Origin: Kitasatospora fiedleri
GTDB taxonomy: Bacteria; Actinomycetota; Actinomycetes; Streptomycetales; Streptomycetaceae
Direction of reading: 5' to 3'
DNA length: 64,000 nucleotides
NCBI RefSeq assembly: GCF_948472415.1
Contig: NZ_OX419520.1
Coordinates: forward strand, 1 to 64,000
Shown: one piece after another, positions 33,379-52,257 of the stretch
How positions within the stretch are numbered: position 1 is the stretch's first letter
Layout: each line of letters begins with the position of its first letter
Position numbers and translations under genes: made by a program
Notes under the pieces: model-generated
What the model was told of the DNA's origin: nothing
The model's input: the letters and a program-made list of their open reading frames with translations, nothing else
Database searches by the model: none

Positions 33379-36300
33379 ATGAGATCCAAGCGCCTACTGC
33401 CACGCCTGACGGCGACGTCGGTCGTGGCGGGAATGCTCCTGCTCACCGGCCCCGTGCTACCGGCCCACGCGGCCGGCGGCCCCAACCTGGCCGCCGGGAA
33501 GCCCGTCACCGCGAGCAGTGCCAACGGCCAGTACACGGCCGCGAACGTCAACGACGGCAACCAGGCCAGCTACTGGGAGAGCGGCAACGGCGCCCTCCCG
33601 CAGTGGGTCCAGGTCGACCTGGGCAGCGCCTCCTCGATCGACCAGGTGGCGCTGAAGCTGCCCACCGGCTGGGGCGCCCGCACCGAGACGCTGACCGTGC
33701 TCGGCTCCACCGACGGCAGCACCTTCGCGCCGCTGGTCGGCTCCGCCGGGTACTCCTTCGACCCGGCGACCGGCAACACCGTCCGGATCACCTTCCCCGC
33801 CGCCAGCGCCCGCTGGGTGCGCGTCCAGGTCTCGGCGAACAGCGCCTGGACGGCCGCCCAGTTCTCCGAACTGGAGGTCTACGGGACGAGCGCCGCCTCC
33901 GCCAACCTGCTGGCCGGACGCACCCTCACCGCCAGCGGCACCTCGCAGAACTACACCCCGGGCAACGCCGCCGACGGCAACCAGGCCAGCTACTGGGAGA
34001 GCAGCAACAGCGCCTTCCCGCAGTGGCTCCAGGGCGACCTGGGCTCCGCGGTCAAGGTCGACAGGCTGGTGCTGAAGCTCCCGCCCGGCTGGGAGCAGCG
34101 CAGCGAGACCTTCAAGGTCCAGGGCTCCACCGACGGCAGCTCCTTCACCGACCTGCTGGCCCCCGCCGCCTACAGCTTCGACCCGGCGGCCGGGAACCAG
34201 GTCACCGTCTCTTTGCCCACCAGCACCACCCGCTACCTGCGGCTGCTGTTCACCGCCAACTCGGCCTGGCCCGCCGCCCAGTTGGCGGAGTTCGAGGCGT
34301 ACGGCCCGACCTCCGGCGACACCCAGGCGCCCACCGCGCCGACCGGCCTGACGTACAGCCAGCCCGAGGCCGGGAAGATCAAGCTGGTCTGGGCCGCGGC
34401 CACCGACAACGTCAAGGTGACCGGCTACGACGTGTACGCCAACGGGCAGTTGGCGGCCTCGGTGGCCGGCGACGTGCTGACCTGGACGGACAGCCGCCCG
34501 GCGAGCGAGACGGTCACGTACACCGTGCGGGCCAAGGACGCCGCGGGCAACCAGTCCAACCCCAGCGCCCCCGTCACCCGCACCGGCGAGGCCCCCGGCG
34601 ACACCGTCAAGCCCAGCGCGCCAGGCAACCTCGCCTACACCGAGCCCGCCGCCGGACAGATCAAGCTGACCTGGGACGCCGCCACCGACAACGTCGGCGT
34701 CACCGGCTACGACGTGTACGCCGACGGGCAGTTGAAGGCCAGCACCGCCGCCACCGTCCGCACCTGGACGGACAGCCAGCCCGCCACCGCCACCGTCACG
34801 TACACCGTGCGGGCCAAGGACGCGGCCGGCAACCAGTCCGACCCCAGCGCCCCCGCCACCCGCACCGGCAGCGGCACCGGCACCCCCGGCAGCAACCTCG
34901 CCGCGGGCAAGCCGATCGAGGCCTCCGGGCAGGCCTGGACCTTCGCCCCGGCCAACGCCAACGACGGCAGCCTGTCCACCTACTGGGAGGGCAACTCCGG
35001 CGCGTTCCCCAACACCCTGACCGTCCACCTGGGCACCGACGCCGACCTGCAGAGCGTCGTCGTCAAGCTCAACCCCGACCCGGCGTGGGGCGCCCGCACC
35101 CAGAACATCCAGGTGCTCGGACGGGCCGACGGCGCCACCGGCTTCACCAGCCTGAAGGCCGCCGCCGACTACCGCTTCGACCCCGCGAACGGCGGCAACA
35201 GCGTCACCGTCCCGGTCACCGGCCGGGCCGCCGACCTCCAGCTGAAGTTCACCTCCAACACCGGCGCCCCCGCCGGACAGGTCGCCGAACTCCAGGCCAT
35301 CGGCACGCCCGCGCCCAACCCCGACCTCACCGTCACCGACGTGTCCTGGTCCCCGGCCGACCCCGACGAGGCCACCGCGATCACGCTGCGCGCCACCGTC
35401 AAGAACACCGGCAACCTGCCCGCCGCCGCCACCAGCGTCGACCTGCTGCTCGGCGGCGCGCTCGCCGACAACGTCGCCGTCCCCGCGCTGGCCGCCGGTG
35501 CCTCCGCCACCGTCAGCAAGGAGATCGGCACCCGCCCGCAGGGCAGCTACCTGCCCAGCGCCCGGGTCGACCCCAAGAACACCGTCCGCGAGCGCAACGA
35601 GGACAACAACCTGCTCGCCGCGAGCAGCCCGATCACCGTCCGCCAGGCGCCCGGGCCCGACCTCGAGGTCCTCGACGTCACCCCCAATCCGGCCAGCCCC
35701 GCGGCCGGCGCGGCCACCTCGTTCACCGTCAAGCTCCACAACCGCGGCATCGACCCGGCCCCCGCCGGCGTCACCCGGCTCACCGTCGGCACCGCGACGC
35801 TGAACACCACCACCCCGGCGATCCCCGCCGGCCAGACCCTCACCCTCCCGGTCACCGGCACCTGGACCGCCGTCGCCGGCGGCGCGACGATCACCGTCAC
35901 CGCCGACGCCACCGGCACCGCCAAGGAGACCAACGAGAACAACAACACCTTCAGCAAGGCCATCGTGGTCGGCCGCGGCGCCGCCGCACCCTTCACCAGC
36001 TACGAGGCCGAGGACGGCGCCTACCAGGGCGAACTGCTCCAGGCCGACGCCACCCGCACCTTCGGCCACACCAACTACGCCTCCGAGTCCTCCGGCCGAA
36101 AGTCGGTGAAGCTCACCGCCACCGGCCAGTACGTCGAGATCACCTCCACCGTCCCGACCAACTCCATCGTGGTGCGCAACTCGATCCCCGACGCCCCCGG
36201 CGGCGGCGGCATCGACGCCACGCTCAGCCTCTACGCCGACAACGTGTTCGTGCAGAAGCTGACCCTCTCCTCCAAGCACAGCTGGCTGTACGGCAACACC

Positions 36301-37722
36301 GACCAGCCCGAGGGCCTCACCCAGACCCCGCAGGCCGACGCCCGCCGGCTCTTCGACGAGACCCACGCGCTGCTCCCCAAGAGCTACCCGGCCGGCACCA
36401 AGCTGCGCCTGCAGCGCGACAGCGGCGACACCGCGTCCTTCTACACCATCGACCTGGTCGACCTGGAGCAGGTCGCCCCGCCCAAGGCCAAGCCGGCCGA
36501 GTGCACCTCGATCGCCGACTTCGGGGCCATCCCCGACGACGGGCAGGACGACACCGCCGCCCTCCAGGCCGCCGTGACGGCCAACCAGAACGGCACCATC
36601 CCCTGCGTGTGGATACCGTCGGGCCAGTGGCGCCAGGAGAAGAAGATCCTCACCGACGACCCGCTCAACCGGGGCATGTACAACCAGGTCGGCATCCGCG
36701 ACGTCACCATCCGCGGCGCGGGCATGTGGTACTCGCAGTTCTACACGCTCACCGAACCGCAGAACGCCACCGGCAGCATCAACCACCCGCACGAGGGCAA
36801 CTTCGGCTTCGACATCGACGACAACACCAGGATCTCCGACATCGCGATCTTCGGCTCCGGCCGAATCCGCGGCGCCTCCGACGGCGCCGAGGGCGGCGTC
36901 GGCCTGAACGGCCGGTTCGGCAAGAACACCAAGATCGAGAACGTCTGGATCGAGCACGCCAACGTCGCCGTCTGGGTCGGCCGCGACTACGACAACATCC
37001 CCGACCTGTGGAACCCCGCCGACGGCCTCCAGTTCAGCGGCATGCGCATCCGCGACACCTACGCCGACGGCATCAACTTCGCCGACGGCACCCGCAACTC
37101 CTCGGTGTTCAACTCCACCTTCCGCACCACCGGTGACGACTCGATGGCCGTCTGGGCCAACAAGTACGTCAAGAACACCGCCGTCGACATCGGCCACGAC
37201 AACGCCTTCGTCAACAACACCGTCCAGCTCCCGTGGCGCGCCACCGGCATCGCGGTGTACGGCGGCTACGGCAACCGGATCGAGAACAACCTGGTCTACG
37301 ACACCGCCAACTACCCCGGCATCATGCTCGCCACCGACCACGACCCGCTGCCCTTCTCCGGGCAGACCCTGATCGCCAACAACGCGATCTACCGCAGCGG
37401 CGGCGCGTTCTGGAACGAGGCCCAGGAGTTCGGCGCGCTCACCCTGTTCGCCGCCAGCCAGGACATCCCCGGCGTCGTCATCCGCGACACCGAGATCCAC
37501 GACAGCACCTACGACGGCATCCAGTTCAAGACCGGCGGCGGGGCCCTCCCCGACGTCAAGATCAGCAACGTGCGGATCGACAAGTCGAACAACGGCGCGG
37601 GCATCCTGGCGATGTCCGGCGCCCGCGGCAGCGCCGTCCTCACCAACGTGCAGGTCAGCAACTCCGCGGACGGCGACATCGTCCGCCAGCCCGGCACCAG
37701 CTTCACGATCACCAACGGGTAG
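33379..37722 (+). CDS. Secreted multidomain GH87 alpha-1,3-glucanase (mutanase)
   Basis: A 1447-residue secreted enzyme, intact in one frame. Order: signal peptide (TATSVVAGMLLLTGPVLPAHA), two discoidin-like domains (residues about 32-175 and 176-312), two fibronectin III domains (about 316-408 and 412-495), a third discoidin-like domain (about 507-645), two CARDB-type domains (about 648-760 and 765-870), a CBM6/35-like domain (YEAEDGAYQGELLQAD onward), and the catalytic beta-helix from about 1040. Catalytic acids fit TYADGINFADGTRNSSVF (Asp1230) and TGDDSMAVW (Asp1253, Asp1254); the 23-residue spacing matches characterised GH87 enzymes. It would hydrolyse fungal or biofilm alpha-1,3-glucan. 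Confidence 0.93.
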   Translation: MRSKRLLPRLTATSVVAGMLLLTGPVLPAHAAGGPNLAAGKPVTASSANGQYTAANVNDGNQASYWESGNGALPQWVQVDLGSASSIDQVALKLPTGWGARTETLTVLGSTDGSTFAPLVGSAGYSFDPATGNTVRITFPAASARWVRVQVSANSAWTAAQFSELEVYGTSAASANLLAGRTLTASGTSQNYTPGNAADGNQASYWESSNSAFPQWLQGDLGSAVKVDRLVLKLPPGWEQRSETFKVQGSTDGSSFTDLLAPAAYSFDPAAGNQVTVSLPTSTTRYLRLLFTANSAWPAAQLAEFEAYGPTSGDTQAPTAPTGLTYSQPEAGKIKLVWAAATDNVKVTGYDVYANGQLAASVAGDVLTWTDSRPASETVTYTVRAKDAAGNQSNPSAPVTRTGEAPGDTVKPSAPGNLAYTEPAAGQIKLTWDAATDNVGVTGYDVYADGQLKASTAATVRTWTDSQPATATVTYTVRAKDAAGNQSDPSAPATRTGSGTGTPGSNLAAGKPIEASGQAWTFAPANANDGSLSTYWEGNSGAFPNTLTVHLGTDADLQSVVVKLNPDPAWGARTQNIQVLGRADGATGFTSLKAAADYRFDPANGGNSVTVPVTGRAADLQLKFTSNTGAPAGQVAELQAIGTPAPNPDLTVTDVSWSPADPDEATAITLRATVKNTGNLPAAATSVDLLLGGALADNVAVPALAAGASATVSKEIGTRPQGSYLPSARVDPKNTVRERNEDNNLLAASSPITVRQAPGPDLEVLDVTPNPASPAAGAATSFTVKLHNRGIDPAPAGVTRLTVGTATLNTTTPAIPAGQTLTLPVTGTWTAVAGGATITVTADATGTAKETNENNNTFSKAIVVGRGAAAPFTSYEAEDGAYQGELLQADATRTFGHTNYASESSGRKSVKLTATGQYVEITSTVPTNSIVVRNSIPDAPGGGGIDATLSLYADNVFVQKLTLSSKHSWLYGNTDQPEGLTQTPQADARRLFDETHALLPKSYPAGTKLRLQRDSGDTASFYTIDLVDLEQVAPPKAKPAECTSIADFGAIPDDGQDDTAALQAAVTANQNGTIPCVWIPSGQWRQEKKILTDDPLNRGMYNQVGIRDVTIRGAGMWYSQFYTLTEPQNATGSINHPHEGNFGFDIDDNTRISDIAIFGSGRIRGASDGAEGGVGLNGRFGKNTKIENVWIEHANVAVWVGRDYDNIPDLWNPADGLQFSGMRIRDTYADGINFADGTRNSSVFNSTFRTTGDDSMAVWANKYVKNTAVDIGHDNAFVNNTVQLPWRATGIAVYGGYGNRIENNLVYDTANYPGIMLATDHDPLPFSGQTLIANNAIYRSGGAFWNEAQEFGALTLFAASQDIPGVVIRDTEIHDSTYDGIQFKTGGGALPDVKISNVRIDKSNNGAGILAMSGARGSAVLTNVQVSNSADGDIVRQPGTSFTITNG

Positions 37723-43576: not shown

Positions 43577-44662
43577 ATGATCAGCAGGCGCACCTTCACC
43601 ACCGCGGTCGGTCTCGGCGTCGGCGCCACCGCTCTCCCGGCCACCGCCCCGGCGGCCGGCGCGCTCACCGCCGACGACCGGCCGACCACCCTCGTCGCGA
43701 CCGTCCCCGCCACGACCGTCCCGGCCGTCGTCCCCGGCACCCACACCGGCTTCGCCGACCTGAGGCGGGTCCAGGCCGGCGTGCTGGACATCGGCTACGC
43801 GGAGACCGGCCCGAAGGACGGCCCGACGGTGATCTGCCTGCACGGCTGGCCGTACGACATCCACAGCTTCGTCGACGTGGCCCCGCTGCTCGCGGACGCC
43901 GGCTACCGGGTGATCGTGCCGTACCTGCGGGGCCACGGCACCACCGCGTTCCTCTCGCCGACCACGCCCCGCAACGGGCAGCAGTCCGCGATCGCGCTCG
44001 ACATCGTCGCCCTGATGGACGCCCTGAAGATCCGCCGGGCGGTGCTGGCCGGCTTCGACTGGGGCTCGCGGACCGCCGACATCATCGCCGCGCTGTGGCC
44101 GGAGCGGGTCAAGGCGCTGGTGTCGGTGAGCGGCTACCTCGTCACCCACCTCCCGGCGCAGCGCACCCCGCTGCCGCCGAAGTACGAGCGGGCCTGGTGG
44201 TACCAGTACTACTTCGCCACCGACCGCGGCCGGGTCGCCATGGAGACCAAGGAGAACCGGCACGACCTGGGCCGGTTGGTGTGGGACGAGGTCTCCCCGA
44301 CCTGGGACTTCGACGAGGCCACCTTCGAGCGCACCGCCGCCGCGTTCGAGAACCCCGACTACGCCGCCGTCGTGGTCCACAACTACCGCTGGCGGCTGGG
44401 GCTGGCCGACGGCGAGCGCCGCTACGACCGCTACGAGCGGCTGCTCGACGCCCAGCCGCCCGTCACGGTGCCGACCATCACCCTGGACCCCGCCCTCGAC
44501 CCGTTCCTGGCCTCCACCGACGGCACGGCCTACCGGAAGTTCTTCACCGGCGCCTACGAGCACCGGGTGCTCGCCGGGATCGGCCACAACGCGCCGCAGG
44601 AGGCGCCGACCGCGTTCGCCCAGGCCGTGGTGGACGCCGACCACCTGGCGGCGCGGCCGTGA
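43577..44662 (+). CDS. Tat-exported epoxide-hydrolase-like alpha/beta hydrolase
   Basis: 361 residues. The N-terminus ISRRTFTTAVGLGVGATALP is a twin-arginine signal. The fold shows VICLHGWPYDIHSFVDVAPL (oxyanion hole), VPYLRGHGTTAFL, the nucleophile elbow VLAGFDWGSRTADI with Asp rather than Ser as in epoxide hydrolases and haloalkane dehalogenases, and a final His in GIGHNAPQE. It would open epoxides or dehalogenate outside the cell membrane. AAAGGACCGGAA precedes ATG. The stop overlaps the next start (GTGA). Confidence 0.9.
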   Translation: MISRRTFTTAVGLGVGATALPATAPAAGALTADDRPTTLVATVPATTVPAVVPGTHTGFADLRRVQAGVLDIGYAETGPKDGPTVICLHGWPYDIHSFVDVAPLLADAGYRVIVPYLRGHGTTAFLSPTTPRNGQQSAIALDIVALMDALKIRRAVLAGFDWGSRTADIIAALWPERVKALVSVSGYLVTHLPAQRTPLPPKYERAWWYQYYFATDRGRVAMETKENRHDLGRLVWDEVSPTWDFDEATFERTAAAFENPDYAAVVVHNYRWRLGLADGERRYDRYERLLDAQPPVTVPTITLDPALDPFLASTDGTAYRKFFTGAYEHRVLAGIGHNAPQEAPTAFAQAVVDADHLAARP

Positions 44663-44907
44663 GCGGCCCGGCCGACAACGGGCGGGTGCGCGGTCCGGAC
44701 GCCGACACGCACGTGCGCGGGCCGGACGCCGACGCGCGGGCCGCCGAGGTCCGCCGGGCCCGGTTCGGCGCGCTCCCCGAGCGGGTCGCCCTCGCCGACC
44801 TGGTCGAGGAACGCCCGGTCCCGCCGCCGCACCGGACGGCCGACGCCCACGACCCCGACAGCCAGGCGGTGCGGTTCTCCTGCCTGGCGGCCGACCTCGG
44901 CCTCTGA
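44659..44907 (+). CDS. Small protein coupled to the hydrolase gene
   Basis: An 82-residue hydrophilic protein translated from GTG overlapping the hydrolase stop. It has a repeated RGPDAD element near the start, then RFGALPERVALADLVEERPV and a C-terminal VRFSCLAADLGL. No signal or helix is seen. I recall no function; the last part looks conserved in actinomycetes. Confidence 0.65.
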   Translation: MSGPADNGRVRGPDADTHVRGPDADARAAEVRRARFGALPERVALADLVEERPVPPPHRTADAHDPDSQAVRFSCLAADLGL

Positions 44908-44948: not shown

Positions 44949-46184
44949 TCACTCGATCTCGTACATCCCGTCGCCGTCGAGGTGGCGCACCGTGTTGAGG
45001 TCGCGCTGGAGCACCGCGTCCACCGGGTGCTCCAGGGTGAGGGTGGCCGGGTAGCCCCGGTCGTACGTGGTCGGGCTGATCGGGTCGCCGGGGCGGACCA
45101 GCACGGTGAGGTCGCGGAAGCTCTCCAGCTCCGCGATCCGGTCGAGCGCCCGGTAGCGGACCAGCCGCCCGGCCGCCGGGGCGACCAGCGCGGCCCAGGC
45201 GAACGCGTGCCGCCGCCGGTACCCCCGGCCGGCCCGGGCCCGGAAGCGCTCCGGGCGGACGTAGGCGTCCACCACCCACTCCAACTGGCCCTCGCCCAGC
45301 AGGTGGGCGGTGTAGTAGGGCAGCCCCGACATCCGGGCGCCCGCCTCGACCAGCCGCGGGCCGTCCGGCGTCAGCTTGACCTCCAGGTGGGCGGCGCCGT
45401 ACCGGATGTCCAGCGCGTCCAGCACCCGGCGGCCGTACGCGGCGAGTTCGGGCACCGGCGGCTCGTCGCAGCGCAGCAGCACCTGGGCCACCACCAGGTC
45501 CCGCACCCCGTTGGCGGTGATCCGCTCGGTGCGCCAGGCGTCGGTCAGCTGGTGCGTCCCGCCGCTGCTGACCGTGTTGAGGACGTACTCGGTGCCGACC
45601 AGGTACTCCTGGGCCACCACCTCCTCGACCGGCTCGCCCTGGACCGTCCCCCGGGCGCGCAGCCGGCGCAGCGCCGCGACCGAGTCCCCGGGCGCGTCGC
45701 AGAACGACACGCCGTCGCCCCAGTAGCTGCGCAGCGGCTTGACCACCGCCACCCCGCCCAGCCGCCGGTGCCAGGCGCGCAGCACGTCCGGGTCGCCGGT
45801 GCGCAGCTGGCGCATGCCGGGCACGCCCCGGGCCTTGAGCGTCTCGATCTGCACGTACTTGTCGCGGCGCGCCGCGCTGGCCGCGGTGCCGTTGGAGGGC
45901 AGCCCGAGCCGCTCGGAGAGCGCGTCGGCCAGCTCCACCCCGGTTTCGCGGCCCGCCAGCACCGCGACCGGCCGCAGCGCCGCCAGCCGCTCGGCCAGGG
46001 CGTCCACCCCGCCGTCGTGGACCAGCACGCTGCCGAACCGTCCCGGGTCCACCGGGTCCACGCCGAACGGGAGTTCGGGCGTGCTCTGCACCTGGACGAC
46101 CTCGCCGCCCACCGCGCCGAACGCGTCGACGTGGCCGAAGGCCGCCCCGAACGCATCGACGACCGCCACGCGGAACGCTGCCAT
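44949..46184 (-). CDS. ATP-grasp ligase
   Basis: A 411-residue ATP-grasp enzyme with a pre-ATP-grasp Rossmann-like domain (FRVAVVDAFGAAFG) and the ATP-grasp fold: SNGTAASAARRDKYVQIETL, GGVAVVKPLRSYWGDGVS (ATP-lysine), VEEVVAQEYLVGTEYVLNTV and AAHLEVKLTPDGPRLVEAGA (metal-binding Glu). Such ligases join a carboxylate to an amine in small-molecule or peptide biosynthesis. ATG at 46184 has a strong TAGGAGGCAGAC site that overlaps the stop of the PrnB-like gene 9 bp upstream, so the two form an operon. Confidence 0.9.
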   Translation of the reverse strand: MAAFRVAVVDAFGAAFGHVDAFGAVGGEVVQVQSTPELPFGVDPVDPGRFGSVLVHDGGVDALAERLAALRPVAVLAGRETGVELADALSERLGLPSNGTAASAARRDKYVQIETLKARGVPGMRQLRTGDPDVLRAWHRRLGGVAVVKPLRSYWGDGVSFCDAPGDSVAALRRLRARGTVQGEPVEEVVAQEYLVGTEYVLNTVSSGGTHQLTDAWRTERITANGVRDLVVAQVLLRCDEPPVPELAAYGRRVLDALDIRYGAAHLEVKLTPDGPRLVEAGARMSGLPYYTAHLLGEGQLEWVVDAYVRPERFRARAGRGYRRRHAFAWAALVAPAAGRLVRYRALDRIAELESFRDLTVLVRPGDPISPTTYDRGYPATLTLEHPVDAVLQRDLNTVRHLDGDGMYEIE

Positions 46185-46193
46185 GTCTGCCTC

Positions 46194-47423
46194 CTACGGA
46201 CGGGTGTGGGTCGGGGCCGCGGCGAGGTCGAGCACCTCGCGGCGGAGTTCGAGCAGCCGGTGCACCGCGTTCGTCAGCACGTGGCGCACGCTGAAGCCCG
46301 AGGTGCCGGTGTCCCCGGGGTGCCGGGCGTCCCCGGCGGCCAGGACGCTCCGCTCGCCGTCCTGCGCGCCGATCTCCCGCCGGGTCAGCCCCGACCGGTC
46401 CGGGAACGCCTCCGGCAGCAGGCGCCGGGTGATCCCCAGGTGCACCATCCGGAAGTCGACGAACCCGTCGATCAGCCGGACCAGCTGCTCCGTCCCGGCG
46501 TCGTCGAGCACCAGCCGGCCGTCCCGCACCGACTGCCACACGTTCGCGCCCAGGCCGGAGGCGCTCCGCCAGCGGGCGACCACCGGCCGGGCCCAGGACG
46601 GGAAGTAGGACATCGCCTGGTCCAGGTAGACGCCGTACTCCCCGGTCGGCGGCAGCAGCACCAGTTCGAGGAGCTGGACGCTGGGCATGAAGGCCCCGCT
46701 CGCCCCGCGCGGACCGCCGGGGTGGCCCAGGTGGTACGGCCGGAAGCGGCCGAACGCCTCCCCGGTCAGCCTGCGGTAGCCCGCCATGTCCGAGGTGAAC
46801 TCCGCGACGCAGCGCGCGGCGTCCTCCAGCACCGCGGCCGGCTTCACGGCGTCCGGCGCCGCCACCAGCGCGCGCAGACCGTAGGCGGCCGACCTGATCC
46901 ACGGCTCGGAGAGGTGGTGCCCGAGGTAGAAGTCCCGTTCGAGGGTGCCCAGCCGCCCGGGCGAGAACACCCTGATGTCACCGCAGCGCGCGTACTCCTC
47001 GCTGTTCACGTCGATCAGCAGCTCGTAGCTCAGGTGCGGGTCCAGACCGGGGAAGCGCGCGCACTGCGCGGAGACCAGCTCCACCAGCTCGCGCGGAGCG
47101 GCGTGCGGCCCGGCCGGAGCGAACCCGTTGAGCATGAAGAGCAGGTCGAGCTGGGTGACCCGGGCCGCGCGCGGGTCGTCGTCGGCGAGGCAGCGCCGAC
47201 CGTACTCGACCAGCAACTCGCGCTGTTTGTCCGCCAGTTGGCGGTACGTCAGGCCGTCGCCGCCGACCTCGGACAGGTCCTGCGGAAGTTCGCGCAGGAC
47301 GTAGTCGCGGAACGGCGAGGAGGACCGCAGGAGCGCGCGCGGCCCGTTCGGCCCGCTCGGTCCGTTCGGCGGGAGGTTCCGGTGGGGGTCCGCGGAACCG
47401 TTGAAGAGATCACTGCTGTCCAT
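46194..47423 (-). CDS. PrnB/indoleamine-dioxygenase-like heme protein (DUF1864-type)
   Basis: 409 residues. The C-terminal two thirds resembles PrnB (monodechloroaminopyrrolnitrin synthase) and the IDO/TDO superfamily: YLGHHLSEPWIRSAAYGLRA, FRPYHLGHPGGPRGASGAFM, VQLLELVLLPPTGEYGVYLD, DGFVDFRMVHLGITRRLLPE and GDTGTSGFSVRHVLTNAVHR. His328 in the RMVHLG helix is the likely proximal heme ligand by analogy with the RYRH helix of tryptophan dioxygenases. ATG follows AAGGAGCGGAC. PrnB rearranges an indole amino acid; with an ATP-grasp ligase next to it, oxidation of tryptophan or a derivative followed by amide formation is a reasonable guess. Confidence 0.75.
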   Translation of the reverse strand: MDSSDLFNGSADPHRNLPPNGPSGPNGPRALLRSSSPFRDYVLRELPQDLSEVGGDGLTYRQLADKQRELLVEYGRRCLADDDPRAARVTQLDLLFMLNGFAPAGPHAAPRELVELVSAQCARFPGLDPHLSYELLIDVNSEEYARCGDIRVFSPGRLGTLERDFYLGHHLSEPWIRSAAYGLRALVAAPDAVKPAAVLEDAARCVAEFTSDMAGYRRLTGEAFGRFRPYHLGHPGGPRGASGAFMPSVQLLELVLLPPTGEYGVYLDQAMSYFPSWARPVVARWRSASGLGANVWQSVRDGRLVLDDAGTEQLVRLIDGFVDFRMVHLGITRRLLPEAFPDRSGLTRREIGAQDGERSVLAAGDARHPGDTGTSGFSVRHVLTNAVHRLLELRREVLDLAAAPTHTRP

Positions 47424-47529
47424 GTCCGCTCCTTGTCCGCAGTAGGGGGCAGTGAGGGTGGGCGGGCCGGTGCCGTCGCCGCCGGCCCGCCCGGGCGCTT
47501 GAAGGTGCTCGTGGGCGCTTGAGGGCGTG

Positions 47530-49161
47530 TCAGGGCCGGACGCAGCGGAAGCTGTCCGCCGCGGCCGGGTCGCCGTGGGTGTAGCGGGAGACCATCGGGT
47601 AGCGGCACAGGTCGCGGGCGACGCTCCGGCCGTCCGCGGTGGTCAGGGTGGCGTGCAGGACGTCCGGGGCCTGGCCGCGCTCGACCCAGGCCGTCAGCGC
47701 CGCCAGGTCGTCCACGCCGCCGTCCTTCAGGCCGCAGTGCGCGACGCCCGGGGCCAGGAAGACCCGGTAGAAGCCGTCGACCCGGGCCGCGCCGCCCATC
47801 CGGGCCTCGACGCGCTCGCGGTAGTCCACCGTCCCCCGGGTGGGGATCAGCTGGTCGGCGCTGCCGTGCCAGGTGAGCAGCTTGCCGCCGGCGTCGCGGA
47901 ACGCCGACAGGTCCGCGTCCCGGGAGCCGATCACGGTGTCGTACTCGGCGCGGGCCGCGCGGAAGATCCGCTCGAACTGCTGGTACGTCAGGTCCGCCGA
48001 GTCGAACCCGGGCTGCTTCAGCACGAAGTCGGCCACCCACTGGGCGGGGACGGTGAACGGTCGGCCGGTGGGCACGCCGTCCACGGGGGCGCTGGCGGCC
48101 AGCGCGGAGAAGTCGGCGCCGACCGGCAGCCCGTACCAGAGCCGCCGGCCGCCGCCGTCCCGCGGGCCGTCCCAGATCCGGCGGACCACCTCGGCGTCGG
48201 CCGCGTCGATGGTGTACTCCTCGCCCTCGCACAGCACCTTGCTGCCGATCAGCCGGCGCGGGTCGAAGTCGCAGCGGTCCGGGTCGCCGATCAGCCCGTC
48301 GGCCACGCCGTCCAGCCGGTCGCAGGCCCGCAGCGCGGCCCGGTTGAAGGCGTCGAACTCGCAGGTGGTCGGATAGGTGTGCTCCTGCTTCATCACCACC
48401 TGCGGCCACAGCGTGGCCACTTCGAACTGGTTCCAGTTGATGCCCGGGGCGGCGGCGTTGATGCCGTCGAAGTCGGTCGGGTACCGCTGCGCCTCCACGT
48501 AGCCCTGGCGGCCACCGGTGGAGCAGCCGTTGAAGTACGAGTGGAACGCGCTGCCGCCGTACCCGTCGCCGACGACCTGCTTGGCGACCAGCGCCAACTC
48601 GTGCACCGAGCGCGAGGCGAAGTTCTCCAGCAGCGCGGCGTCGACCCGGCCCTGCGGGTCCAGCCCCCAACTGCCGTCCCAGCCGGTGGTGTACACGCCC
48701 GCGTCGGTGGTGGCCGCCGCGTAGCCCTGCTTGACCGCGACGGCCACCGCGCCGATGTCACCGGCGGCGTAGCCGGTACCGCCGACCGCCTGGAACCGCC
48801 CGTTCCACCCCGCCAGCGGCAGCCAGACCTGCACCCTCGCCCGGTCGTCCGCGCCCGGATGGGTCAGCGTGACCGTCACCTCGCAGTGCGCCGGGACGTC
48901 GGTCACCGAGTAGCCGCCCAAGGGCAGCACCCCGGGCACCTCGAACGTCCCCGCCGGCACCGCCGCCGCGGCCACCGACTCCACCACGGCGCCCTCCGGC
49001 GCCGCCGGCCGGAACGCGGCACAGGCCGCCACGGCGGACCCGCGACCGGCCCGGTCCGCACCACCCGCCGGACCGGTCGACGCGCTCGCCGGCGCGCACA
49101 GGGCCACGGCCGCCGCCAGCGAGAACCCCGCCGCCGCGAGCCTCGGAAGCCGTCGGTTCAT
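47530..49161 (-). CDS. Secreted tannase/feruloyl esterase family hydrolase
   Basis: 543 residues from the ATG at 49161 (GGAGAGACACAC ahead). Signal peptide RLPRLAAAGFSLAAAVALCA. Family marks: VWLPLAGWNGRFQAVGGTGY, YFNGCSTGGRQGYVEAQRYP (nucleophile Ser, disulfide Cys), INAAAPGINWNQFEVA, WHGSADQLIPTRGTVDYRER (catalytic Asp) and FLAPGVAHCGLKDGGVDDLA (His and partner Cys), so the CS-D-HC motif is complete. It would release phenolic acids from plant polymers or gallate esters outside the cell. Confidence 0.93.
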   Translation of the reverse strand: MNRRLPRLAAAGFSLAAAVALCAPASASTGPAGGADRAGRGSAVAACAAFRPAAPEGAVVESVAAAAVPAGTFEVPGVLPLGGYSVTDVPAHCEVTVTLTHPGADDRARVQVWLPLAGWNGRFQAVGGTGYAAGDIGAVAVAVKQGYAAATTDAGVYTTGWDGSWGLDPQGRVDAALLENFASRSVHELALVAKQVVGDGYGGSAFHSYFNGCSTGGRQGYVEAQRYPTDFDGINAAAPGINWNQFEVATLWPQVVMKQEHTYPTTCEFDAFNRAALRACDRLDGVADGLIGDPDRCDFDPRRLIGSKVLCEGEEYTIDAADAEVVRRIWDGPRDGGGRRLWYGLPVGADFSALAASAPVDGVPTGRPFTVPAQWVADFVLKQPGFDSADLTYQQFERIFRAARAEYDTVIGSRDADLSAFRDAGGKLLTWHGSADQLIPTRGTVDYRERVEARMGGAARVDGFYRVFLAPGVAHCGLKDGGVDDLAALTAWVERGQAPDVLHATLTTADGRSVARDLCRYPMVSRYTHGDPAAADSFRCVRP

Positions 49162-49521: not shown

Positions 49522-52257
49522 TCACCCTCCGGCGAGGGCGTCGTCGAGCTCGCGGCGGGAGGAGACCCCCAACTTGGTGAACACCTTGCGCAGGTGCCAC
49601 TCGACGGTGCGCGGGCTGAGGAACAGCTGGGCGCCGATCTCCGCGTTCGGGTGCCCGGTGGCCGCCAGCCGGGCGATCCGGGCCTCCTGCGGGGTGAGGA
49701 CGGGCTCGCCGCCGGTGTCGCGTCGGCGCACCGTCTCGCCGGTGGCCAGCAGCTCCCGCCGAGCCCGCTCCGCGAACGCCTCCATGCCCATCGCCGCGGC
49801 CGCCCCGTGCGCGGCGCGCAGTTCGTCGCGGGCCTGCGCCCGCCGGTTCCGGCGGCGCAGCCACTCGCCGAACAGCAGCCGGGCCCGGGCCTCCAGCCCG
49901 CCCAGCCCACCCAGGGCGAAGTGGTCGACCGCCTCGCGGTAGCGCTCCTCGGCCTGCTCCGGCGCCCCGGCCAGGGCCTCCGCCAGCGCCCCGGCCCCCA
50001 GCGCCCAGGGCGTCCCGGCCCGGGCCCAGTCGGCCAGCTGCTCGCGCGCCCCGGCCGCCGCGTCCGGCCGCCCGGCCCGGACCGCCGCCTCGACCAGCTC
50101 CCCGCACGTCCAGTGGTGCACGGCGAGATCCCGGTGCTCGGTGCCCCGCAGCGCGGCCTCCAGCGCGAGCGGGTAGGCGCCCAGGCCGTTGTGCAGCACC
50201 GCCCGCGCCAACGCCGCGGTGGCCGCCAGCCGGCCCAGACCGCGCTGCTCACACTCCCGCTCCGCCCCTTCGATCTCCGCCAGGGCCGACCCGTCCCGCC
50301 CCCGGTACGCGCCGATCAGCGCGGCCGTGACCGCCCGGGTCGCCGCGCCCGCGGTCTCCTCGACGGCCGCCGCCCCGGCCAGCAGCGCCCCGGCCTCGGC
50401 GAACCGCCCCGCGAAGCCCAGCGAGGCCGCCCGGTACGGCAGCGCCGCCGCGAGGGTCGACAGAGCCCCGGTCGCCCGGGCGGAGCGCACCGCCCGGTCG
50501 GTGACGTCCAGCCAGGCCCCGAGGTCGCCCAGCTCGGCGGCGGCGTTCACGACCGCCCACAGCAGGGCCGGGTCCTCGACCTCGGTCCGCGACCGCAGCG
50601 CCCGCGCCAGCAGCGGCTGGGCGGCGACCGGCCCGTCCGCGCTCCACGCGGCCAGCGCCCGCAGCAGGACGGCGGCCTGCTCGTCCCCGGGCGGCAGCGC
50701 GCGGGCGGCCGCCGCGACCCGCCGGAGCGCCTCCCGGTCGTGGCGGCCGGCCCGGACCGCCGCGCCGAACGCGGTCAGGCAGGTCTCCCGCGCGGCGGCC
50801 GGATCGAGCCCGCCGAGCCGCTCCGCCGCGTCGAGCAGCGGCCCCACCGCCCCGGCCCCCCGGTCCCGCAGGGCGGACGCCCGGGCCCGCAGCCGGTGCA
50901 CGTCGGCCTGCTGCACCAGGTTCAGCGGCCCCAGCTCGGCGGCGGCCAGCAGGTCCGGCACCCGGGCCGTCAACCCGGCCGCGAGGGAGGCCGCCGCAGC
51001 CGCCAGCGCCCGCCGCGCCTGCCCCTTCGGCTCGGGGGAGAGCGCGGCGGCCCGCTCCAGGAAACCGGCCGCGGCGGCCCGGCCGCCCCGGGCCAGGGCC
51101 CGGTCGGCGGAGTCCTCCAGCGCGGCGGCGACCTGCTCGTCCGGCCCGGCCGCGGCGTGCGCCAGGTGCCAGGCCCGCCGGTCGGGGTCGCGCCCGCCGT
51201 CGGTGGCCTCGGCCAGCGCCCGGTGGGCGGACCGCAGGGCGGCGGCGTCCGCGCCCCGCCACACGGCGGACCGCACCAGCGGGTGCCGGAACCGCACCGG
51301 GGCGCCCAGGGTGACCAGCCCGGCCGCCTCGGCCGGGGCCGCCGCCTCCGGCCCGATGCCCAGCAGCCGCAGCGCGTGCCACAGCAGCGGCCCGTCGCCG
51401 ACCGGTTCGACCGCCGCGACCAGCAGCAGCGCCCGGGTGTCGGCCGGCAGCGCCGCCACCCGCCGCCGGAACCCCTCCTCCACCCGGGACGCCAGCGGAC
51501 CGGCCCCCGGCCCGCCGAACCCGAACGCCAACTCCGCGGGCGACAGGCCGCGCGGCAACTCCAGCAGCGCGAGCGGATTCCCGCCGGTCTCACCGACCAC
51601 CCGGTCCCGCACCCGGGCGTCCACCGGCCCCGGCAGCACCCGGTCCAGCAGCGCCCTGGCCTCGGCGTCGCCCAGCCCGCGCAGCGGGAGGTCCGGCAGC
51701 CCGGCGAAGCCCGCGTCACCCACCCCGTCGACGGTCCGCTCGGCGAACACCAGCGCCACCGACTCGGCGTCCAGCCGTCGGCCGACGAACGCCAGAATCC
51801 GCTGCGACATCAGGTCCAGCCACTGGGCGTCGTCCACCAGGCACACCAGCGGACCACCGGCGGCGGCCTCCGCGAACAGCCCGAGCACCGCCATCCCGAC
51901 CAGCAGCATCTCGGGCGCCGCCCCCGCGCTCAGCCCGAACGCCACCCGCAGCGCCTCCCGCTGCACCGGCGGCAGCCCGTCCAGCCCGTCCAGCAGCGGA
52001 GCGCACAACCGCTGCAACGCCGCGTAGGCGAACTCCGCCTCCGCCTCCACCCCGGCCGCCCGGACGACCCGCAACCGCCCCGCCCGCTCGGCCCGTTCGG
52101 CCACCAGGTCCAGCAGTGCCGACTTGCCGACCCCGGCCTCCCCCCGCAGCACCAGCACCCGGCTACGGCCCTCCCGCACCTCCCGCAGCAGCTCCTCCAG
52201 CGCCCCCGACTCCCGCTCCCGGCCGAGCAGCCGCTGCACCGCGTGATCCGACATCAC
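49522..52257 (-). CDS. LAL-type LuxR family transcriptional regulator
   Basis: A full-length 911-residue LAL regulator. The ATPase domain has Walker A (VLVLRGEAGVGKSALLDLVA), Walker B (PLVCLVDDAQWLDLMSQRIL) and VGETGGNPLALLELPRGLSP. A long TPR-like helical middle follows, and the C-terminal LuxR HTH is LTPQEARIARLAATGHPNAE and LFLSPRTVEWHLRKVFTKLG. Start is one of two adjacent ATGs at 52257. It may control the tannase gene just downstream on the same strand or the PrnB/ATP-grasp operon beyond (inference). Confidence 0.95.
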   Translation of the reverse strand: MMSDHAVQRLLGRERESGALEELLREVREGRSRVLVLRGEAGVGKSALLDLVAERAERAGRLRVVRAAGVEAEAEFAYAALQRLCAPLLDGLDGLPPVQREALRVAFGLSAGAAPEMLLVGMAVLGLFAEAAAGGPLVCLVDDAQWLDLMSQRILAFVGRRLDAESVALVFAERTVDGVGDAGFAGLPDLPLRGLGDAEARALLDRVLPGPVDARVRDRVVGETGGNPLALLELPRGLSPAELAFGFGGPGAGPLASRVEEGFRRRVAALPADTRALLLVAAVEPVGDGPLLWHALRLLGIGPEAAAPAEAAGLVTLGAPVRFRHPLVRSAVWRGADAAALRSAHRALAEATDGGRDPDRRAWHLAHAAAGPDEQVAAALEDSADRALARGGRAAAAGFLERAAALSPEPKGQARRALAAAAASLAAGLTARVPDLLAAAELGPLNLVQQADVHRLRARASALRDRGAGAVGPLLDAAERLGGLDPAAARETCLTAFGAAVRAGRHDREALRRVAAAARALPPGDEQAAVLLRALAAWSADGPVAAQPLLARALRSRTEVEDPALLWAVVNAAAELGDLGAWLDVTDRAVRSARATGALSTLAAALPYRAASLGFAGRFAEAGALLAGAAAVEETAGAATRAVTAALIGAYRGRDGSALAEIEGAERECEQRGLGRLAATAALARAVLHNGLGAYPLALEAALRGTEHRDLAVHHWTCGELVEAAVRAGRPDAAAGAREQLADWARAGTPWALGAGALAEALAGAPEQAEERYREAVDHFALGGLGGLEARARLLFGEWLRRRNRRAQARDELRAAHGAAAAMGMEAFAERARRELLATGETVRRRDTGGEPVLTPQEARIARLAATGHPNAEIGAQLFLSPRTVEWHLRKVFTKLGVSSRRELDDALAGG

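Follow-up and report, generated by a model that had tools for sequence, protein, structure and literature searches.

The window, by which we mean the whole stretch of DNA analyzed, spans positions 1 to 64,000 of a 112,066-base contig in the 8.07 Mb genome of Kitasatospora fiedleri. It carries a pair of adjacent, co-directional genes, one for a protein resembling the heme-dependent aromatic oxygenases (HDAO; IDO, TDO and PrnB) and one for an ATP-grasp ligase of the L-amino acid ligase type, hereafter the oxygenase and the ligase (Table 1). Inspection of the junction between them, CCGTAGGAGGCAGACATG, reveals that the oxygenase TAG stop codon overlaps the GGAGG from which ligase translation would start, with 9 nucleotides (nt) from stop to start, which bears out the overlap described in an earlier note on this DNA. 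Third-position G+C is 0.95 for the oxygenase gene and 0.98 for the ligase gene, and dN/dS over eight locus pairs ranges from 0.14 to 0.48 and from 0.15 to 0.38, respectively, indicating that both are coding genes under constraint.

A protein search returned oxygenase matches in 8/70 Kitasatospora genomes and in 13/394 Streptomycetaceae genomes, the latter comprising ten genomes with near-full copies, two with fragments (G007, G302) and one with a spurious match (G128, E 7.7e-5), which was ruled out as a family member because its frames hold no family-like protein. When 392 Streptomyces genomes, a partly overlapping set, were searched by profile, seven matches appeared, four of them new near-full copies. 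Among the best four or fewer candidates per listed genome, 394 genomes of the class gave only the source genome itself and one weak match (G555, E 2.6e-4). A further copy, 43% identical, lies on plasmids of Streptomyces clavuligerus. The near-full copies examined number 16 (window, G011, G013, G046, G026, G065, G003, two in G246, G240, G326, G765, G928, G1039, G891 and S. clavuligerus). G1039 (locus L058) is counted here on a 55% match over residues 29-397 and an adjacent ligase; its start lies in an unexpected frame, and it was excluded from the alignments and the ligase tree. In the Streptomyces genome G246, the two copies of the pair derive from different branches (L024, L026), and one lies ~40 kb from the start of a 7.3 Mb contig.

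In all 16 near-full copies, from Kitasatospora, Streptomyces and S. clavuligerus, the ligase gene adjoins the oxygenase gene. The oxygenase gene comes first at 15 of these loci, with gaps of -4 to 45 nt; in S. clavuligerus the order is reversed, with the ligase gene first and 185 nt between the two. No ligase match was found around the two oxygenase fragments. The association also holds when viewed from the ligase: a full-length ligase of at least 78% identity occurs in seven of the 70 Kitasatospora genomes, and the oxygenase gene is present in all seven (in one with a stop codon), versus 0/13 for the next 13 ligase matches (54% identity or less, and 42-53% in a second comparison) in profile searches of called genes for an oxygenase of either kind. 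At three of these related-ligase loci, the neighbors scanned belong to chorismate-binding, amidotransferase, cyclase, AMP-binding, aldehyde-dehydrogenase, SDR, PLP and MFS families. In a midpoint-rooted tree, 15 paired ligases fall on one side of a single branch (100/100), apart from 17 other Kitasatospora-locus ligases consisting of the 13 next-best places and their tandem neighbors. The pairing of the two genes is therefore conserved, and its absence, which the earlier note had named as a refutation, is not what we observe.

To our oxygenase, two AlphaFold models give a structural context. Both were built from its own family alone, the first with ten members (predicted local distance difference test, pLDDT, 65; predicted template modeling score, pTM, 0.60) and the second with three more (pLDDT 68, pTM 0.69), and model confidence is moderate only. 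The best Foldseek matches of the first model are IDO structures, with PrnB best after realignment (Z 17.0; 7.2 Å over 284 residues); the best Foldseek E-value for the oxygenase is 5.8e-6. The second model aligns with bacterial SO4414 (Z 23.2; 4.2 Å, 312 residues), PrnB (Z 22.8; 3.8 Å, 314 residues) and human IDO1 (Z 21.3; 4.5 Å, 319 residues). All of the best 50 structure matches listed are IDO1, IDO2, PrnB or SO4414, with Z between 20.5 and 23.2; TDO, MarE and SfmD are not among these 50. Unrelated helical models may score as high as about Z 13, and the values of 20-23 observed here are well above that level. The modeled structures thus support an IDO/PrnB fold for the oxygenase.

Profile comparison places a candidate heme ligand within this predicted fold. 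Local profile-profile alignment of the oxygenase family with members of the PrnB family (PF08933) gives E 2.9e-4 (Prob 41) and, with a smaller oxygenase alignment, E 4.0e-4 (Prob 35), versus 0.46 and 0.18 for two unrelated control families. In the local alignment, His328 of the window protein falls on the PrnB-family histidine that is His313 of PrnB 2v7i, which we take to be the heme ligand of that protein. His328 is invariant in 14/14 oxygenase sequences and, judged from conservation and alignment, is likely the axial heme ligand; the earlier note had proposed to check the role of this residue. A second histidine, His169, is also invariant in the family, and a weak profile match (E 1.8) aligns it with the mutated residue of IDO1 S167H; the S167 position presumably corresponds to the place of the distal histidine in TDO. 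Two loops, GASG (240-243) and GTSG (373-376), resemble the loop pair of human TDO in the same chain order, and both are poorly modeled. The first reads (G/S)(A/V)SG in 14/14 sequences and the second GTSG in 13/14, with SASG/GTGG in the S. clavuligerus copy; the human TDO pair is given as PASG/GTGGS in PMC11904535. An invariant Leu-Phe at residues 6-7 (14/14) lies ahead of a variable, poorly modeled N-terminal linker and, speculatively, may be a docking element.

The PF08933 model does not reach its cut-off on the oxygenase, whether with the window protein, ten family members or its own genome. The controls of the own-genome search were silent, and the same model matches 18/200 Streptomycetaceae genomes above cut-off. 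With Luz15 and BifE compared by description only, the oxygenase appears to be a deeply diverged new branch among the HDAO enzymes. As separate observations, PF08933 proteins (loci L033-L044) are not rare in Streptomycetaceae (18/200 genomes), and at L040 and L042 the PF08933 gene is directly followed by a frame that, on visual inspection, resembles an FAD-dependent monooxygenase. Distant homologs of the oxygenase occur on plasmids of root-nodule Rhizobium and Bradyrhizobium (L054:8226-10912; L093; L094). The Rhizobium gallicum homolog (30% over 241 columns) has no annotated ATP-grasp gene within 10 kb and lies 17 nt after a gene that carries the annotation coproporphyrinogen-III-oxidase family (HemN-like). 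In R. tropici, the matching gene has 1770 bases and a GNAT acetyltransferase annotation. These rhizobia may have a second heme-linked pathway.

The ligase matches the L-amino acid ligase 30vh at 2.9e-46 over residues 50-402 and BL00235 (3vot) more weakly at 4.8e-8. Matches to PRK07206 (5.1e-78), DdaF (dapdiamide A synthase, 2.6e-45) and ATP-grasp_4 (1.8e-5) all fall below the respective cut-offs, DdaF far below its equivalog cut-off. E268, E280 and R284 are invariant in 11/11 ligases and align with the same residues of 3vot; we assign these two glutamates and the arginine to the ATP-grasp site. From the matches to 30vh, BL00235, PRK07206 and DdaF, the protein is by homology an ATP-grasp enzyme of the L-amino acid ligase type and a putative former of dipeptides or amides, and the ATP-grasp ligase that the earlier note had placed beside the PrnB-like gene is upheld in this form.

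Table 1. Genes and features of the window discussed in the text.
Feature	Position	Strand	Remarks
Oxygenase gene, heme-dependent aromatic oxygenase-like	46194-47423	-	409 amino acids, ATG start; predicted axial His328
Ligase gene, L-amino-acid-ligase-type ATP-grasp	44949-46184	-	411 amino acids, ATG start
Oxygenase/ligase junction	46185-46196	-	Oxygenase TAG stop overlapping ligase GGAGG ribosome site
Strong hairpin, tannase side of the pair	47424-47529		
Epoxide-hydrolase-like alpha/beta hydrolase	43577-44662	+	Abhydrolase_1 3.7e-21; N-terminus MISRRTF, twin-arginine-like
82-residue protein, unknown family	44659-44907	+	Overlaps the hydrolase-like gene by 4 nt
Tannase/feruloyl-esterase family protein	47530-49161	-	Pair sits between the tannase-like and 82-residue genes
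Large LuxR-family (LAL-type) regulator	49522-52257	-	Near the pair in Kitasatospora
1429-residue protein	33433-37722		Alpha-1,3-glucanase (CatAgl), F5/8 type C and CARDB domains

The epoxide-hydrolase-like and 82-residue genes that the earlier note had described opposite the pair are both present and conserved in relatives, but their proposed membership in a biosynthetic cassette does not hold. They accompany the pair in only 3/16 near-full copies (window, L018, L019; flanks are short at two of the 16, L027 and L058), and the tannase-like gene occurs with the pair at these three loci and partly at L023. In the Streptomyces loci examined, with the same limit on flanks, no hydrolase, 82-residue, tannase or regulator gene was found. 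The regulator lies near the pair at 7/8 Kitasatospora loci, counting the one where the copy is truncated, and its ortholog (E <=1e-200) occurs in 8/8 Kitasatospora genomes with the pair or a remnant and in 11/62 others (Fisher p 8e-6, a value that ignores descent). The regulator may control the pair; it also persists without it. Eleven Kitasatospora genomes without an intact pair, picked for having the regulator ortholog, carry the hydrolase-like gene in 11/11 (once as an 18-residue stub and once in two frames), the 82-residue gene in 7/11 and the tannase-like gene in 5/11, with the pair in 0/11.

The site occupied by the pair can be recognized in its absence. In G001, G005 and G008 (L095, L103, L105), the 82-residue and tannase-like genes are convergent and separated by ~70-120 bases that fold into a strong hairpin; in the window this interval holds the pair, and a strong hairpin remains on the tannase side. 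We therefore regard the pair as a separate unit inserted into or lost from a stable neighborhood. At least one loss is indicated by a 44-residue ligase relic beside an SDR gene in G001. The junction may also be a favored insertion site, since between the same two genes G067 (L097) has ~1 kb that does not match the pair. Given that the neighborhood exists without the pair, the hydrolase-like, 82-residue, tannase-like and LuxR-type genes were rejected as needed members of a pathway. The SDR gene, which lies directly upstream of the pair at L021-L023 and of the truncated copy at L028, was likewise rejected, with an 89-90% identical SDR at L095 and L097 where an intact pair is lacking. Clustering of called genes from 13 stretches, in which exporters were not searched for as such, revealed no third gene recurring across all loci.

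In HDAO enzymes, an aromatic amino acid is bound above a histidine-ligated heme and receives one oxygen or two; ATP-grasp ligases generate an acyl phosphate, which is then attacked by an amine. We consider it fairly probable that the pair is an autonomous two-gene operon of patchy distribution, in which a heme oxygenase and a dedicated ligase make an oxidized aromatic dipeptide or amide without a nonribosomal peptide synthetase (NRPS). In such a pathway, the histidine-ligated heme oxygenase would oxidize an aromatic amino acid, most likely tryptophan, and the ligase would activate a carboxylate as an acyl phosphate and join it to an amine. Oxidation could come before or after amide formation, and the product would be an oxidized amino acid within a dipeptide or other amide. 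Tryptophan is favored because most described relatives use it. Computed support comes from the fold, the histidine at the axial position, the ligase family, the co-directional order, the pairing, purifying selection and the dispensability of the neighbors; from these we infer heme binding, an aromatic or tryptophan substrate, oxygen insertion and a dipeptide or amide product. More tentatively, the bare gene pair may travel as an NRPS-free pathway in which the new HDAO branch and its ligase yield undescribed oxidized aromatic dipeptides or amides, the heme enzyme possibly acting on the ligated product. No paper on the oxygenase-ligase pair was found in searches of an open-access library from which most subscription papers are absent. 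What is new is the branch of a known fold together with the pairing; a new kind of chemistry would be at hand only once demonstrated.

Several results weigh against this pathway or the assignments behind it. In single-sequence searches, the oxygenase matches nothing in Pfam or NCBIfam and nothing in the PDB by phmmer; in this respect the earlier note's label of PrnB-like finds no backing, and it survives through the structure comparison, which returned the IDO/PrnB fold. Ten family members compared with Pfam at E up to 10 yield only TFIID_20kDa (3 members, best 0.0064) and SQS_PSY (1 member, 0.02), implausible matches that we take as chance. Profile searches of the PDB with the oxygenase family reach E 0.4 or worse, and one alignment (A5) gives no match; PrnB ranks third (E 1.4) behind two unrelated chains, and IDO1 fifth (E 1.8) behind four. 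Global profile-profile comparison with PF08933 is weak (E 0.011, Prob 1.8), and the local alignment covers only the middle part of the protein, ending before the GTSG loop. In the second model, pLDDT drops below 50 at 232-244, which includes the GASG loop, and at 333-377, which follows His328 and includes the GTSG loop. The correlation of oxygenase and ligase distances (Pearson 0.95, Spearman 0.89; 14 loci) counts in favor of the pairing, but it and the grouping of the paired ligases would partly follow from linkage alone. As to substrate, other HDAO members use tyrosine derivatives, such that tryptophan is a guess. Lastly, the oxygenase gene of G011, a strain of the same species (L018:8814-10025), has an in-frame TAG at codon 114, equivalent to Gln120 of the window protein, with the remaining frame and the ligase intact. 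This codon reflects either a recent loss or a sequencing error, and owing to it the pathway may be dispensable in that strain.

Two alternatives are sharper versions of the two-gene pathway, and our estimate for the pathway overlaps with those for both. In one, which we think somewhat unlikely, the oxygenase acts after ligation: the ligase makes an aromatic amino-acid dipeptide or amide, which the heme enzyme then oxidizes or rearranges. The ligase-first order in S. clavuligerus fits this sequence of steps, and on account of that locus gene order does not fix step order. For the PrnB homologue PdnC, hydroxylation of Trp7 in the completed paenidepsin peptide has been proposed, a function that its authors call speculative (PMC13036774). 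In contrast, PrnB, IDO, MarE, Luz15 and BifE are described, in the sources consulted, with free amino acids or simple derivatives. The other version, in our view unlikely, has the heme enzyme as a plain tryptophan dioxygenase-like former of N-formylkynurenine or kynurenine, from which the ligase makes a kynurenine dipeptide. The invariant His169 and the canonical GTGG of the S. clavuligerus copy point in this direction, but the alignment of His169 with the S167H residue is far from significant. Moreover, IDO itself also monooxygenates (PMC12921851), such that sequence cannot tell mono- from dioxygenation.

The remaining alternatives depart from the two-gene pathway altogether. A heme protein that is a sensor or dead enzyme, beside a ligase acting on a cellular peptide or protein, would fit the lack of a third gene common to all loci (13 stretches clustered) and the stop codon in the oxygenase gene of one sister strain. 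We hold it to be very unlikely: the predicted axial histidine, the two loops on the substrate side and dN/dS values below 0.5 suggest that catalysis is retained, and the chorismate-binding, amidotransferase, cyclase, PLP-enzyme and MFS families beside related ligases at three loci also speak against it. Largely refuted, and the least probable of all, is a six-gene cassette in which the epoxide-hydrolase-like, 82-residue, ligase, oxygenase, tannase-like and LuxR-type genes together make and process the compound. All six genes do occur together in the window, L018 and L019, and the regulator ortholog tracks genomes with the pair or its remnant (8/8 versus 11/62). Against such a cassette stand the 11 genomes that keep all or part of the neighborhood without an intact pair, the three genomes where nothing but a short spacer with a hairpin separates the 82-residue gene from the tannase gene, and the Streptomyces loci examined (short flanks at L027 and L058), where the four neighbor genes were not found.

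The two-gene pathway that we favor would add to the HDAO enzymes a branch unrecognized by any Pfam or NCBIfam model scanned. Because the oxygenase is tied to a ligase, its chemistry becomes readable as a dipeptide or amide, and because the unit consists of two genes, it should be easy to reconstitute in E. coli or in a Streptomyces host. The pair would help to show the reach of the oxygen chemistry of this fold, encompassing dioxygenation, hydroxylation and rearrangement, which is an open question for PrnB too. What it suggests is a natural-product pathway of very small size that is as yet unexplored.

Among known systems, PrnB of pyrrolnitrin biosynthesis (PF08933) is like the oxygenase in its IDO fold and aligned axial histidine. 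It differs in that the window oxygenase goes unseen by the PF08933 model, shares 16-18% identity in structural alignments and has a ligase as its partner; among the neighbors of the pair, in a scan covering part of the genes, there is no halogenase and none of prnA, prnC and prnD. IDO/TDO and SO4414 have a fold in common with the oxygenase (Z ~23 for SO4414, 20.5-21.3 for IDO1/IDO2) and a TDO-like loop pair, but identity is 12-18% and the window oxygenase is linked to a ligase of an amide-forming type. The L-amino acid ligases 30vh, BL00235 (3vot) and DdaF are homologous to the window ligase over most of its length, and we know of no heme enzyme partner for them. PrnB itself is reported as inactive in vitro with common redox systems (PMC11791213). 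The bacterial heme tryptophan hydroxylases Luz15 (Shi et al. 2023, through citing papers) and BifE are described as TDO-superfamily heme enzymes that oxidize tryptophan for a natural product; in contrast to the oxygenase of the pair, BifE feeds an NRPS. PMC13285481 and PMC13338154 were further sources. Finally, the heme hydrazine synthases KinJ/KinI are set apart, by their description (PMC12154649), as another protein family, with residues up to H541 and thus longer than the oxygenase, and with a need for ferredoxin; they resemble the present pair in that the heme enzyme is often clustered with ATP-grasp ligases.

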